Below are positions 48,859 through 55,142 of a DNA stretch of 64,000 nucleotides, piece after piece. Every line of letters begins with the position of its first letter. Positions within the stretch are counted from its first letter, which is position 1. Location: assembly GCA_024224295.1 (NCBI GenBank), contig JAAENN010000029.1, positions 85,542 through 149,541 on the forward strand, written 5' to 3'. The stretch comes from Shimia sp. (GTDB lineage: Bacteria; Pseudomonadota; Alphaproteobacteria; Rhodobacterales; Rhodobacteraceae). The notes under the pieces were generated by a model. The model was not told the DNA's origin. It did no database searches and saw only the letters and a list, made by a program, of their open reading frames with translations. The position numbers and the translations under genes were made by a program.

Positions 48859-49935
48859 TCAGGCTTGCGGTGCAATGGCAATCAGGTGGTTGTCCCATTG
48901 CAGGGGATGTTCGCGCTTTTCGGCTCTGATGCGCCCGACGAGGCCGGTACCTGTGGTTAGGAAGAAGCCTGTTTGTGCGGGTCCGATACCACAGACATCG
49001 TCGAGTTTATGAGAGACGATCAGGGCGCCGGTTTTGATGTCAAATACTTGAGCCAGGTTTCCACGTGGTGAGGTAATGGCCGCAAAGTGCCCATCGCCAG
49101 AAATTGCTACGCTTCCAGCGTAGCCTTGCATGGCGCGATGAGCCTGCTCTGTCGCAGTTAAGAGATCGACGGTTGCATTGCGTCTATGTAAACCAAGCAG
49201 CGGAGGAGCTTCGGTTTTGGGGCCTTGCCACTGCATGGCAAAAGCGACGAGACCATCGGGGCGGACGGCAAGATGGCGGATTGAGTTTTTGTGCAGAGCG
49301 GGGGGCAGTGTGACTTGTTCAAGCGGCGTACCGTTGGTGCTCAGATAGCTGAGGTTCGGTTCCATCACGGGGATGTTGAGCTTGCTGCGGCCCATGTCGG
49401 GGTGGGTCTCGATGCCGCCGTTGGCAACCACAAGGGTTTGGCCGTCTGGCATGAGTTTGAGGTCATGCGGACCAATGCCGCCGGAGGAAAACTCCCCGAT
49501 GCGGGTGTAGTTTTGGGTCACGTCCCAAAGGCCGATGACGCCTTCGCCAACTTCATAACTATTCTCGGATGTGAAGAGCGTATTGCCGTCTGTGGAGAAA
49601 GTGCCATGACCGTAAAAGTGGCGGCCTTCTGGCGCCGTGAGGGTGTTTATGATCGCGCCGTCGCGGCAATCCAGTACCAAAGCAAAGGTGCCTGGGCGGC
49701 GCGCAAAGGCGACAGCCTCGGCGCGCTCTGGATGTGCGGCGGCGGCGTGTCCGCGGGCGGGCAAAGGGATGGTGAAGGTGATGTCGCCGATCGAGGTGAG
49801 GCCTGCGAGCAGATAGGTGCCGTCCGGGGCGCGGGCAGCGGAAAGATAGTTCGGCGTACCCACGCTGCTCCAACCCGCGCGGGGCAGAAGGCTTGCGGCG
49901 GCGAGGCCTGCGAGCATGCGACGGCGGGTGACCAT
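48859..49935 (-). CDS. DUF1513-like protein, Tat signal
   Basis: VTRRRMLAGLAAASLLPRAGW; beta-propeller-like FYGHGTFSTDGNTLFTSEN...GIGPHDLKLMPDGQTLVVANGGIETHP. Confidence 0.85.
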   Translation of the reverse strand: MVTRRRMLAGLAAASLLPRAGWSSVGTPNYLSAARAPDGTYLLAGLTSIGDITFTIPLPARGHAAAAHPERAEAVAFARRPGTFALVLDCRDGAIINTLTAPEGRHFYGHGTFSTDGNTLFTSENSYEVGEGVIGLWDVTQNYTRIGEFSSGGIGPHDLKLMPDGQTLVVANGGIETHPDMGRSKLNIPVMEPNLSYLSTNGTPLEQVTLPPALHKNSIRHLAVRPDGLVAFAMQWQGPKTEAPPLLGLHRRNATVDLLTATEQAHRAMQGYAGSVAISGDGHFAAITSPRGNLAQVFDIKTGALIVSHKLDDVCGIGPAQTGFFLTTGTGLVGRIRAEKREHPLQWDNHLIAIAPQA

Positions 49936-50951
49936 CAGTCGCCGTCCAAGGCGTTGAAGCCGGCGCTGACGTCGAGGGCGGGGCCAAGTTCCTGCAGTAC
50001 AATGTCGCGGATGTTGCCGATGTATTGCTGTAAGATTTCGACACGCAGGCGGCCCTGGATGTCGGAGACACCAGCAAAGGCTGGATCATTCTCAAGCTCA
50101 GTGGCTTGGCCGAGTGTGAGCGAAAAAGCGGCGGTAAGGCTGTCCGCTTGAGAGGGTGTTTGTGCGGCCATTAGGGCGGCGAGCTGTTCTAGCGCCTCAA
50201 GAGACACGCTGATGTTTTGCAGGCTGCGCTCCGATCGGCGGGCCTCGGCGCGCAGGGGGCGGGGTTTGTCGAATGTACCTAGCGGGCGACCGAGCCGGGC
50301 GTCTGCGTTGAATTGCAGGCCGGTATCGAGCGCTTTGAACAGCTCGGCCACAGCGGCGAGGTCCGTGGTGTAGGGGCCGTCTTCCGACGGGGTGCGCATG
50401 AGGTCGGCATAGCCGTTTTGCCAATCATTCAGAATCTCGGTGGCGTTGCGGTCTATGTCGTTGGTGACGGCTTGGATCAAGGTGCAGCGATAGGCGTCGC
50501 TGCCTAAGGTCTGGATGCGCTTGTCATAAAGCAGGAACTCCAGCGCGAAAAAACCATGGGCGGCGATGGAGACTTCGGCAAAGGCGTCTTCATCAAAGGC
50601 GGCTGGGTCTTTGGCGGTGATCAGTCTGGAGAGTGCTTTGGGGGTGAAGCCTTTGGTGTCGGGCCAGAAAGCCATGGAAAAGGCGCGTTCGCCTTCTTCT
50701 GTGGGGCCAAATCGCAGGTGGCTGACGGCCATCCAGGCATCAAAGCTTTGGTGATAGGCCGCGCGCAGGGCGGAAGAGTCGCTGGCGCAGTCTTGAGCAG
50801 CGGTGTTTTTAAGCGTACCGCTGGCCTCTGTCAGGGCGGCGAATCCCGGCAGGACATGCGCGTCGATGGCAGTGTCCACCAGCGTAGCGGGGTCCAGAGC
50901 CCATGCGGGTTGAGACAATAGGAGCGAGGCGGTCAGGGCAAGCAGGCGCAT
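49935..50951 (-). CDS. Imelysin family protein (M75-like), degenerate motif
   Basis: Signal peptide MRLLALTASLLLSQPAWA; GFFALEFLLYDKR aligns to imelysin GxHxxE region; in the imelysin/DHOR cluster. Confidence 0.85.
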   Translation of the reverse strand: MRLLALTASLLLSQPAWALDPATLVDTAIDAHVLPGFAALTEASGTLKNTAAQDCASDSSALRAAYHQSFDAWMAVSHLRFGPTEEGERAFSMAFWPDTKGFTPKALSRLITAKDPAAFDEDAFAEVSIAAHGFFALEFLLYDKRIQTLGSDAYRCTLIQAVTNDIDRNATEILNDWQNGYADLMRTPSEDGPYTTDLAAVAELFKALDTGLQFNADARLGRPLGTFDKPRPLRAEARRSERSLQNISVSLEALEQLAALMAAQTPSQADSLTAAFSLTLGQATELENDPAFAGVSDIQGRLRVEILQQYIGNIRDIVLQELGPALDVSAGFNALDGD

Positions 50952-50953
50952 GG

Positions 50954-52465
50954 TCAGAGGCTTTCAATAAATCGGATGAGAGCGGCGCGGTCGGCGGGCG
51001 GCATGGAGACCACGGTGTCGCGGGCGGACTGCGCTTCGCCGCCATGCCAGAGGATGGCTTCGAGGATGTTGCGGGCGCGCCCATCGTGCAGGAGTTGTGT
51101 GTGGCCGGACACCTGACCTGTGAGGCCGATACCCCAGAGCGGTGGCGTGCGCCATTCTTGGCCAGTGGCGCGGCCCTCGGGACGGTTGTCGGCCAGATCC
51201 GGCCCCATGTCGTGCAGGAGCATGTCGGTGTAGGGCCAGATCAGTTGGAAGCTTTGGGTAGGCTGCTCTTCGAGCCGATGGGTCACAAATGACGGCGTGT
51301 GGCAGGACGCGCAGCCGGTCGTGTGGAACACTTCTTTGCCGCGCAGCACCTCGGGATCGTCCACGTCGCGGCGGGCGGGCACGGCGAGGTTGGCACTGTA
51401 AAAGGTGACAAGGTCGAGGCCGATTTCATCGACTTCAAAGACACGTACATCGCCGTCGCCGTGCGGCGCGTCGATGCATTCGACTTGTTCTTTGGTGCAG
51501 TCGCCATGACCTGCTTCAAACAATGGTGTTGAGATGCCGATGTCGGCGGCAAAGGCAGCGCCGGATTGCTGGCGCAGGGTTGGTGCGCCGGCTTTAAGGC
51601 CAAAGCGGCCCAGCATCGGGCGTTGGTATTCGACCGACCAGGTGATGTTGGCCCGTCCCGAGATACCATCACTATTTGCATCATCGGGGTCAGCGTTGGC
51701 GAGGATGTCGTCGGCTGGGATGGCGTCCAGCAGGCCGAGGCCAATCATTTGCGGCGCAACGCGGGGGCTGAACATCACATCATGGTGGAGGGGGCCGTAG
51801 CCAAGGTCTTTCAGAGCATAGGAAGGGCGGCGCAATGTGGCGGTTTTGCCGCCGGATAAAGCTATGTCAAGCTCTTCAAAGGTGACTTCGATACGTGCCT
51901 CGGCGGGATGGCCGGGTAGGTTGAAATCCTGAATTTGCGATCCGTAAGTTGGCTCTGGCCGCGTGGCCAGGAAGTCTTCGATTTCGTAAATCTGGTCGGT
52001 CTGTTGGCCGGGGATTGCAAGTTTGATCGCCAGTGACAGCGCGTCGTCATCCGGGCCTTCCGGCGCGTGGCCACGTCCGGATTTTTGGTGGCAGCCTAGG
52101 CAATTGCGGGCGTTGTATAGCGGACCCAGGCCGTCAGAGGCCAGTGTGGAGCTGGGAGAGGAAACCCATAGCTTGTCAAACATCGCCTCGCCCATCCGGA
52201 ATATCAGTCCGTCTTCTTTGCTGAGATTGGCGGAGGGCTGTTTGAAAGCAAAGGCGTCGTTGCGCACGGGCACGGTTGCGGCACCGCCAGGGCGGGATTC
52301 AAACTTTTGCGGTTGGGAAAAGTCGGTGGGTGCGGCTGTGACGCCTTGGATGCGTTTGGTCTCGGCGTCGGTGCGGGGCACCACGTTGAGATGGCGGTCA
52401 TCTAGAGCTTGTACCGATGTGGAAGCGAAGAGTAGGCAGAAGACCGTGGCTGAGGAAGTTCGCAT
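50954..52465 (-). CDS. Di-heme oxidoreductase family (putative thiol oxidoreductase)
   Basis: Two CxxCH heme sites (NCLGCHQKSGRGH and GCASCHTPSF); LSKEDGLIFRMGEAMFDKLWV; start MRTSSATVFCLLFASTSVQA. Confidence 0.9.
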   Translation of the reverse strand: MRTSSATVFCLLFASTSVQALDDRHLNVVPRTDAETKRIQGVTAAPTDFSQPQKFESRPGGAATVPVRNDAFAFKQPSANLSKEDGLIFRMGEAMFDKLWVSSPSSTLASDGLGPLYNARNCLGCHQKSGRGHAPEGPDDDALSLAIKLAIPGQQTDQIYEIEDFLATRPEPTYGSQIQDFNLPGHPAEARIEVTFEELDIALSGGKTATLRRPSYALKDLGYGPLHHDVMFSPRVAPQMIGLGLLDAIPADDILANADPDDANSDGISGRANITWSVEYQRPMLGRFGLKAGAPTLRQQSGAAFAADIGISTPLFEAGHGDCTKEQVECIDAPHGDGDVRVFEVDEIGLDLVTFYSANLAVPARRDVDDPEVLRGKEVFHTTGCASCHTPSFVTHRLEEQPTQSFQLIWPYTDMLLHDMGPDLADNRPEGRATGQEWRTPPLWGIGLTGQVSGHTQLLHDGRARNILEAILWHGGEAQSARDTVVSMPPADRAALIRFIESL

Positions 52466-52541: not shown

Positions 52542-53810
52542 TTATTGGAACACGGCGTCTGGATTGTCGAGGCTGTCGGAGCCTTCAAACGCCAGCTGGT
52601 CCAGGCCCAGTGCTTTTACTGCTGCTTCGATAGATTTGGTCTGATCCACCAGACCGTCTACGCCACCCATGACCAGCGCTTCGCCAGCTGCGTTGCCGCG
52701 CTCCAGCATCTGGTCATAAGAGAAACCGGATTCGGCGGCGGTTTTGATGCGGCCGAGGGACATCATAGTAGTGGAGAGCTTGGCTTGCAGCTCTGCGTCC
52801 AGATCGGCGTTCACTTCTGCCACAAGATCAGACACGGAAGGGCCTGACACCAGGGAACCGTCTACACGCACGTATTCGCCAAGGTAGACGTTCTGGATGC
52901 CCAGACCGTCGTAGTAGTGGCTGTTGTGGGTGTTGTCGGAGAAGCAATCGTGCTCTTCTTCCGGGTCGTTCAGGAGCAGGCCAAGGCGCATACGTTCACC
53001 GGCTTGCTCACCATAAGACAGGGAGCCCATGCCGGTCAGGATGGCCACGAGACCTGCGTCTGTGTCACCCGTGACGGTTGCACGGGCTTCGCCGTCTACG
53101 GACCACTGAGCGGCCATGAATTCGAGATCAGAGACCAGCAGATCGGTAGCGGCTTTCAGGTAGGCTGCGCGGCGGTCACAGTTGTCGCTGGTGCAGGCGT
53201 CGCCGGCTGCGAAATCTGTCCAAGGGCGGTCACCCGCGCCGTGGTTGTGGCCGTTCATGTCCTGGCCCCAGAGCAGGAATTCGATGGCGTGATAACCGGT
53301 GGCAACGTTGGCTTCAACGCCGTCAGCTTCGTGCAGGCTTTCCAGCAAAGCTGGGGTGATCTCTGCAGCGTCAATGGTTTCACCGGAGATGTCGAAAGAG
53401 GCATTGGCCACCACGTTCAGCGCAGCCAGCGGGTTTTCGTCAGAAGGGCCACCGTAAGCGGCGTCTACATAGTCGATCAGGCCTTCGTCCAGAGGCCAAG
53501 CATTCACTTTGCCTTCCCAGTCGTCCACGGCGGCGTTGCCGAAACGGTAGACTTCGGTCTGCTGATACGGCACGCGGGAAGCCAGCCATGCGCCCTGTGC
53601 GTTGTGCAGTGCCTCAGCGGATGGGTTTTCGATCAGCGCATTCACGGCCGCTTGTAGTGTTTTGGCGGTGGTCAGGCTGTCTTCGTACTTGGCGGCGGCG
53701 ATGTTGGCGTAGTTGGCAACAACATCAGCTTTATTTGCGGCAAATGCAGGCGCGGTCAGTGCCAGCACGGCCGCGGAAGTGATCAAAATGTGACGAGTCA
53801 TGGAATCCAT
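52542..53810 (-). CDS. Imelysin family protein (IrpA-like iron-regulated peptidase-like)
   Basis: Signal peptide; GYHAIEFLLWGQDMN (GxHxxE motif); NHSHYYDGLGIQNVYLGEY. Confidence 0.92.
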   Translation of the reverse strand: MDSMTRHILITSAAVLALTAPAFAANKADVVANYANIAAAKYEDSLTTAKTLQAAVNALIENPSAEALHNAQGAWLASRVPYQQTEVYRFGNAAVDDWEGKVNAWPLDEGLIDYVDAAYGGPSDENPLAALNVVANASFDISGETIDAAEITPALLESLHEADGVEANVATGYHAIEFLLWGQDMNGHNHGAGDRPWTDFAAGDACTSDNCDRRAAYLKAATDLLVSDLEFMAAQWSVDGEARATVTGDTDAGLVAILTGMGSLSYGEQAGERMRLGLLLNDPEEEHDCFSDNTHNSHYYDGLGIQNVYLGEYVRVDGSLVSGPSVSDLVAEVNADLDAELQAKLSTTMMSLGRIKTAAESGFSYDQMLERGNAAGEALVMGGVDGLVDQTKSIEAAVKALGLDQLAFEGSDSLDNPDAVFQ

Positions 53811-53836
53811 TCCCTGTTAGCGAATTTGGCTCATAA

Positions 53837-53853
53837 CTGACTAGTTTTGTCGG
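53837..53853. promoter_or_regulatory. IRO-like inverted repeat upstream of imelysin gene
   Basis: CTGACTAGTTTTGTCGG; TGA-N9-TCG, closely matches 55077-55093. Confidence 0.5.
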
Positions 53854-53933
53854 CTTCGTCAATCCTTATTAATTTTGTATGCTTTTAGGTGCGGCGCTAT
53901 GTCCCGCACCCAAATATGCATAGAAAATAAAGC

Positions 53934-55061
53934 TTATTGATCTTTGAGCAGGTGCTCGTAGCGCGAGTCCGTCAGGGTTTTGAGGAAGGCCACAATGGCG
54001 TCGACACGCTGGTCGTCCAACGCTGGTCCATGGGTGAGTTCCTCAAAAGCCAAGGTTGTTGGCACCGCGGGCATGCGGAAGGTCTCGCCGGTTTCCGGAT
54101 TGGTACGGCGCTTTACGTCGGTGGTATTAAATTGATTGTAGAACAGTACCACAGTGCGGAGATCTTCGAACACGCCGTTGTGCATATACGGGCCGGTGAC
54201 CGCCACGTTGCGCAGGGTTGGGGTTTTGAATTTGCCGCGCAGGGTGGGGTTTTTTGCCATGTCCGGGTGGGCGGCGAGTCCGACATCCACTGTGCCGCGC
54301 TTCACGCCGTTCAATTCGCGCAAGGCCAAATTCTCCGGTACGCCGATGTTTTGGTACTCGTAGTTGGTGAAGGTCTCCTGCGGGTCCAATTGGCTTTTGC
54401 TAAGCTGGTGGCAGAGGTTGCAGTTAGTGAACTGCTCGGAGAAGAACAGCACGCGGCCGAGGTCTTCTTCGCGGGTCAATTCGACTTCCCCACGCAGGAA
54501 ACGGTCATATTTACTGTCAAATGGCGCGAAAATTTCGGTTCGCTCAAAGGCTGCGATAGCTTCGGTCATGGCGATATAGCCGGTTTGAGGATCGCTCAAA
54601 ACCTCGCCGTCAAACAGCGCCGGGAAGGCTTGGGTATAGACCGGGTCTTCGAGCAGACGTGCGAGAACGGCGGCTTCATCAGCCATTCCCATTTCCATTG
54701 GGTTCAGAGGTGGGCCGCCCGCCTGATCTTCTAATCGGTTGGCGCGGCCATCCCAAAACTGCCCCCCAACCCAAATGCCATCCGCGTTTTTGTGAAACTG
54801 CGGAGTGAAGGCGGCGTAGGCCACGCTGGGCGCGTTGCGGTCACCGAGGGATTCACCGTCGTCGCCAATTGACGCCATGCCGCGCGGATCGGCAAAGCCT
54901 CGTTCCGGATCATGGCAGGTGGCGCAGGATTGCGTGCGGTTGGCAGATAGGTTCACATCAAAGAACAGGTGTTCTCCGAGGGCTTCCAGGGTGGTGGGGA
55001 CGTCTTCCGCCAAAACTGGCGAGGAGGCGAGCACACATGCAATGGCGAGAGAGCGATACAT
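53934..55061 (-). CDS. Di-heme cytochrome-c peroxidase / MbnH-like protein
   Basis: LGEHLFFDVNLSANRTQSCATCHDPERGFAD and second CNLCH; FKTPTLRNVAVTGPYMHNGVFEDL. Confidence 0.9.
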   Translation of the reverse strand: MYRSLAIACVLASSPVLAEDVPTTLEALGEHLFFDVNLSANRTQSCATCHDPERGFADPRGMASIGDDGESLGDRNAPSVAYAAFTPQFHKNADGIWVGGQFWDGRANRLEDQAGGPPLNPMEMGMADEAAVLARLLEDPVYTQAFPALFDGEVLSDPQTGYIAMTEAIAAFERTEIFAPFDSKYDRFLRGEVELTREEDLGRVLFFSEQFTNCNLCHQLSKSQLDPQETFTNYEYQNIGVPENLALRELNGVKRGTVDVGLAAHPDMAKNPTLRGKFKTPTLRNVAVTGPYMHNGVFEDLRTVVLFYNQFNTTDVKRRTNPETGETFRMPAVPTTLAFEELTHGPALDDQRVDAIVAFLKTLTDSRYEHLLKDQ

Positions 55062-55076
55062 TCAGGTGTCTCATTT

Positions 55077-55093
55077 CTGACTTGTATAGTCAG
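55077..55093. promoter_or_regulatory. IRO-like perfect inverted repeat upstream of di-heme peroxidase gene
   Basis: CTGACT-TGTAT-AGTCAG; contains TGA-N9-TCA. Confidence 0.6.
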
Positions 55094-55142
55094 CTTTGCG
55101 CCTGTTTGAGCAAAAGGTCAACGGACACTGTTGACGCAGGGG

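Follow-up and report, generated by a model that had tools for sequence, protein, structure and literature searches.

The 64-kb stretch of Shimia DNA analysed here (the window) carries a gene for a di-heme cytochrome c peroxidase and, downstream of it on the same strand, an operon that begins with an imelysin gene, each preceded by a palindrome of predicted operator character. The features of the locus are as follows.

53934–55061, minus strand: di-heme cytochrome c peroxidase (CCP_MauG; Pfam PF03150, 5e-50)
52542–53810, minus strand: imelysin (Peptidase_M75), IrpA-like, first gene of the downstream operon (PF09375, 4e-85)
50954–52465, minus strand: di-heme oxidoreductase DHOR/DUF1111, probable operon member (PF06537, 1e-87; synteny)
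49935–50951, minus strand: second imelysin, probable operon member (PF09375, 6e-49; synteny)
48859–49935, minus strand: DUF1513 protein, last gene of the conserved block (PF07433, 8e-123; synteny)
55075–55095, minus strand: box A, predicted Iron-Rhodo-box type operator of the peroxidase gene (core 55077–55093, 15 nt from core to ATG; 17.2 bits)
53835–53855, minus strand: box B, predicted Iron-Rhodo-box type operator of the imelysin operon (core 53837–53853, 26 nt from core to ATG; 18.1 bits)
53863–53883, minus strand: weak partner box of box B, lying 28 bp farther upstream in a putative tandem operator (11.0 bits, ranking third in the window)
53878–53922, minus strand: RNA hairpin without a U-tract, between the peroxidase stop and box B (−22.5 kcal/mol, z −4.2)

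The order imelysin, DHOR/DUF1111, second imelysin and DUF1513 recurs in almost all of 80 relatives, where hemP usually precedes the block and bfd–bfr sometimes lies within it, and the imelysin of the window is 94–96% identical to those of Shimia sagamensis and other Shimia loci. The NCBIfam model nearest to the peroxidase is the MbnH-like TIGR04039, matched at 172 bits and below its cut-off of 363.

Site A reads CTGACTTGTATAGTCAG (55077–55093) and site B CTGACTAGTTTTGTCGG (53837–53853); the original prediction of two operator-like palindromes had placed both correctly with respect to the minus-strand start codons of the peroxidase (ATG at 55061) and the imelysin (ATG at 53810). The two 17-mers share 13 of 17 positions. 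The 6+6 palindrome is perfect in site A and imperfect in site B (four of six arm pairs), and both sites show the predicted spacing of a RirA operator, TGA-N9-TCA in A and TGA-N9-TCG in B. A GCTT that was also reported as common to the two sites is present but of little weight, since it takes in the final G of the box and is not constant across the genus; being unconserved, it was dropped as an extra operator feature. No sigma-70-like promoter is found by consensus at either box; the distance from box end to start codon is 15 nt at box A and 26 nt at box B.

A motif learned from relatives and its conservation

The exact pattern CTGACT-N5-AGTCAG occurs once in the 4.56-Mb genome, at site A. With up to two mismatches allowed, site B is among 93 genomic places, against 75 for a control pattern, and is thus not rare; the plain consensus therefore singles out site A only, and counting by it was dropped as too weak a test of site B. 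We derived instead a palindromic matrix by expectation maximisation (seed CTGA-N9-TCAG) from the 250 bp upstream of imelysin at 72 Rhodobacteraceae loci, with the window itself and the eight closest Shimia loci left out. The motif learned is a 17–21-bp palindrome, converging on A.CTGA, an A/T-rich centre and TCAG.T at 20.4 bits, compared with only 7–10 bits for shuffled input under the same seed.

Across the window this matrix ranks box B first (18.1 bits) and box A second (17.2 bits), the next site reaching 11.0 bits. As no peroxidase promoter was in the training set, the ranking of box A is the independent, cleaner test. Local 200-bp shuffles reach the observed score in none of 5,000 trials for site A and one of 5,000 for site B. 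The view that both are chance palindromes in A+T-rich promoter sequence can draw on the loose consensus count for site B and on dinucleotide shuffles of the window, which yield 0.03 sites above 17.1 bits per window, one equally good site in 3% of cases; it is hardly credible for two sites that lie exactly before two iron-type genes and are conserved at orthologous and unlinked promoters.

Among relatives, a box of at least 15 bits lies within 1.2 kb upstream of imelysin or hemP–imelysin at 69 of 72 loci, compared with 2 of 208 control windows; the 72 are the training loci too, although training covered 250 bp only. Box A is kept at 14–21.5 bits just before the peroxidase gene in seven of eight Shimia-type loci and is absent from the eighth. 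Outside the genus, 10 of 19 peroxidase orthologues have a box of at least 12 bits within 300 bp upstream (controls, 1 of 192; Fisher p 3e-11), a clear box being lacking at the other nine. Since most of these 19 have no imelysin in the 4-kb stretch compared, the peroxidase gene carries its box independently and not merely by way of its neighbour. Conservation in orthologous promoters, on which the original prediction hung, is thus found for both genes. In 150 family genomes, a reduced form of the box pattern has 209 occurrences, against 24 for a reversed control.

A few bases of the hairpin between the two genes fall within the weak partner box. It went undetected in the terminator scan and, lacking a U-tract, is not claimed as a terminator. 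Together, a stable hairpin and separate boxes favour two transcription units, with read-through from the peroxidase gene into imelysin possible. At the level of sequence, an own box and box conservation at each gene support the two separate, co-regulated promoters that had been proposed.

The weak partner box has a parallel in other imelysin/hemP promoters (L024–L095), where 56 of 73 box pairs less than 80 bp apart are spaced 27–28 bp start to start (27 bp, n = 49; 28 bp, n = 7). So fixed a spacing suggests that tandem boxes bind two dimers next to each other.

Operator class and candidate regulators

The Iron-Rhodo-box was reportedly defined by Rodionov in 2006. Our motif fits it in symmetry, length, targets and taxon, the match being to published descriptions rather than to the Rodionov matrix or logo. 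A passage of PMC4618611 describes the box as a 19-bp palindrome resembling the RirA box; in Rhodobacter sphaeroides it is bound by IscR, which represses in the presence of iron and whose regulon includes irpA, bfd–bfr and a three-gene block with a thiol oxidoreductase (Remes 2015, PMC4618611). An independent network model also puts the imelysin RSP_1548 and bfd under IscR in that species (PMC4344238). Shimia shares with this regulon the palindrome before irpA/hemP, bfd–bfr and iron uptake genes, an operon in which a DHOR-like thiol oxidoreductase is joined by two further genes, and a single-Cys IscR with PCPAV; it differs in that the peroxidase gene, not hemP, precedes imelysin, that bfd–bfr lies elsewhere and that the iscR promoter has no good box. 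The original assignment to a RirA-type operator thus stands as to the iron-type class and the TGA-N9-TCA spacing, whereas the class proper is the Iron-Rhodo-box, a target of IscR in R. sphaeroides (PMC4618611).

IscR is encoded in the genome beside iscS, as a protein of 158 aa with one cysteine, at position 140 in PCPAV; the same motif and single-Cys ligation are known from R. sphaeroides IscR (PMC4618611). E. coli IscR is likewise an Rrf2-family Fe-S regulator of iron/Fe-S genes but differs in its (Cys)3(His)1 ligation. The Shimia protein scores below the cut-off of the general IscR model (146 versus 208 bits), and a close match to it is encoded in 144 of 150 family genomes. We consider it likely that both palindromes are Iron-Rhodo-boxes and that Fe-S IscR represses both promoters at high iron, with low iron very probably switching on the imelysin operon and the peroxidase gene together. 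Iron-loaded (Fe-S) IscR, an Rrf2-family repressor, would sit on both boxes and block both promoters when iron is plentiful; a shortage of iron or Fe-S clusters would lift the repression, and the peroxidase gene and the imelysin–DHOR–imelysin–DUF1513 operon would then be expressed from separate promoters. IscR binding, the direction of control and the overlap of boxes with promoters are taken over by analogy from R. sphaeroides. Counting against this model, the best box in the iscR promoter (L096/L194) is degenerate (TCTTGACGAATTTGCTCTGTC, 2.8 bits; 2–12 bits in relatives, L195–L201), despite the regulation by R. sphaeroides IscR of its own promoter.

The spacing TGA-N9-TCA is also that of the RirA box of Rhizobiales and of the Dinoroseobacter shibae RirA system, and a RirA-like Rrf2 protein is present in all 25 genus genomes searched, with RirA as its best-scoring model and with Cys91, Cys99 and Cys105, a set that would suit the cluster ligation by three cysteines mentioned in the title of ref. 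48 in PMC8007024. In 24 of these genomes it is full-length (142–163 aa). In the genome of the window, an in-frame TAG interrupts the gene (C156:36258–36602; L149, L174) at codon 116 of about 148, and the frame stays open after it; this is either a true nonsense mutation or an assembly error. D. shibae RirA is 44% identical to rhizobial RirA and acts together with IscR on the heme receptor gene hemB2, and the induction of a DUF1111 protein by peroxide requires RirA in that species (PMC8007024); the statement in PMC4618611 that RirA is absent from Rhodobacteraceae is thereby contradicted for some members. It is nevertheless unlikely that the sites are RirA operators through which a RirA-like Rrf2 protein with an Fe-S cluster governs both promoters, either by itself or jointly with IscR. 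Besides the early stop in this assembly, the full-length orthologues fall below the RirA cut-off (121–136 versus 193 bits), and family genomes lacking a RirA-like match have the box at least as often as those that possess one (1.85 versus 1.13 per genome; 150 genomes). Loss of rirA in D. shibae leaves most iron proteins non-derepressed (PMC8007024), and the RirA-like RSP_3341 of R. sphaeroides binds the nap, cycJ and dnaK promoters (PMC4344238). A near-universal single-Cys IscR, a RirA-like gene that is stopped and a box that is independent of RirA-like presence together make IscR the better candidate. RirA is a possible co-regulator or partner in congeners, where it may share these sites, and not the best single attribution.

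The other two iron regulators present, a Fur/Mur-like protein and Irr (above the Irr cut-offs), are both encoded in the genome. The motif is not of the Fur or ICE-box type, the kinds of site known for these families. In R. sphaeroides, according to a passage of PMC4618611 that cites Peuser et al., neither Fur/Mur nor Irr appears to be the master iron regulator. Binding of both sites by either protein is very improbable.

Further boxes and the place of the peroxidase

A search of the genome for further sites at iron genes had been suggested along with the original prediction. With the matrix from other genera, and by pattern searches followed by matrix scoring (a non-exhaustive route), such sites are among the matches listed, upstream of hemP (22.8 bits), of a TonB receptor with a divergent AraC-type regulator and an ExbB-like gene nearby (21.5 and 19.5 bits), of an SBP_bac_6 (Fe3+-type) binding protein (19.5 bits) and of bfd–bfr (16.7 bits). 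The best intergenic site among the matches listed, at 26.3 bits, precedes an uncharacterised two-gene unit (L139:2045–2065, equal to C299:18544–18564); its two small genes have no Pfam match, and the one of 162 aa is a candidate member of the iron regulon. Some strong matches fall inside genes, for example one of 17.2 bits in L109 and one of 18.1 bits where a dnaA-like gene starts (L145), and were taken as chance. The proposed co-regulation by iron is thereby supported in sequence terms, the same box standing at both genes, at orthologous promoters and at other iron genes of the genome.

Regulation of this kind is known and ordinary for Rhodobacteraceae, and the operators are of an established type. 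Three points of modest weight seem new: that the di-heme peroxidase belongs to the regulon independently of its neighbour, that tandem boxes keep a fixed spacing and that the RirA-like gene is broken. The peroxidase appears to have drawn little notice as part of the Iron-Rhodo-box regulon, and in a literature search of partial coverage we found no paper on an arrangement of imelysin with IscR or with a di-heme peroxidase. A di-heme peroxidase without assigned substrate would thereby join the genes with which a group of marine Rhodobacteraceae probably responds to iron starvation, and its position beside imelysin hints concretely at one iron pathway served by imelysin and di-heme enzymes. More tentatively, and with considerable doubt, we suggest that the MauG/MbnH-like peroxidase could form a distinct, independently recruited branch of the regulon across Rhodobacteraceae, acting with imelysin in periplasmic iron/heme handling, and that tandem boxes at 27–28-bp spacing could bind two Rrf2 dimers cooperatively, either both of IscR or one each of IscR and RirA. 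If the cooperative reading is true, two Fe-S sensors could share one promoter; the fixed spacing makes cooperative binding by Fe-S Rrf2 proteins directly testable.

Some of the other boxed genes stand apart. A formate/nitrite transporter gene (L107:1501–1521, 21.1 bits) and the gene of a DUF308 membrane protein (L105:1501–1521, 19.1 bits) have strong upstream boxes in the same genome, with an obvious iron link absent. Distant orthologues of the 162-aa gene (30–47% identity; L203–L206, L209 and L210) occur in other genera, mostly with a box of 15–28 bits upstream, and in one genome (G119) the orthologue adjoins the peroxidase–imelysin pair.
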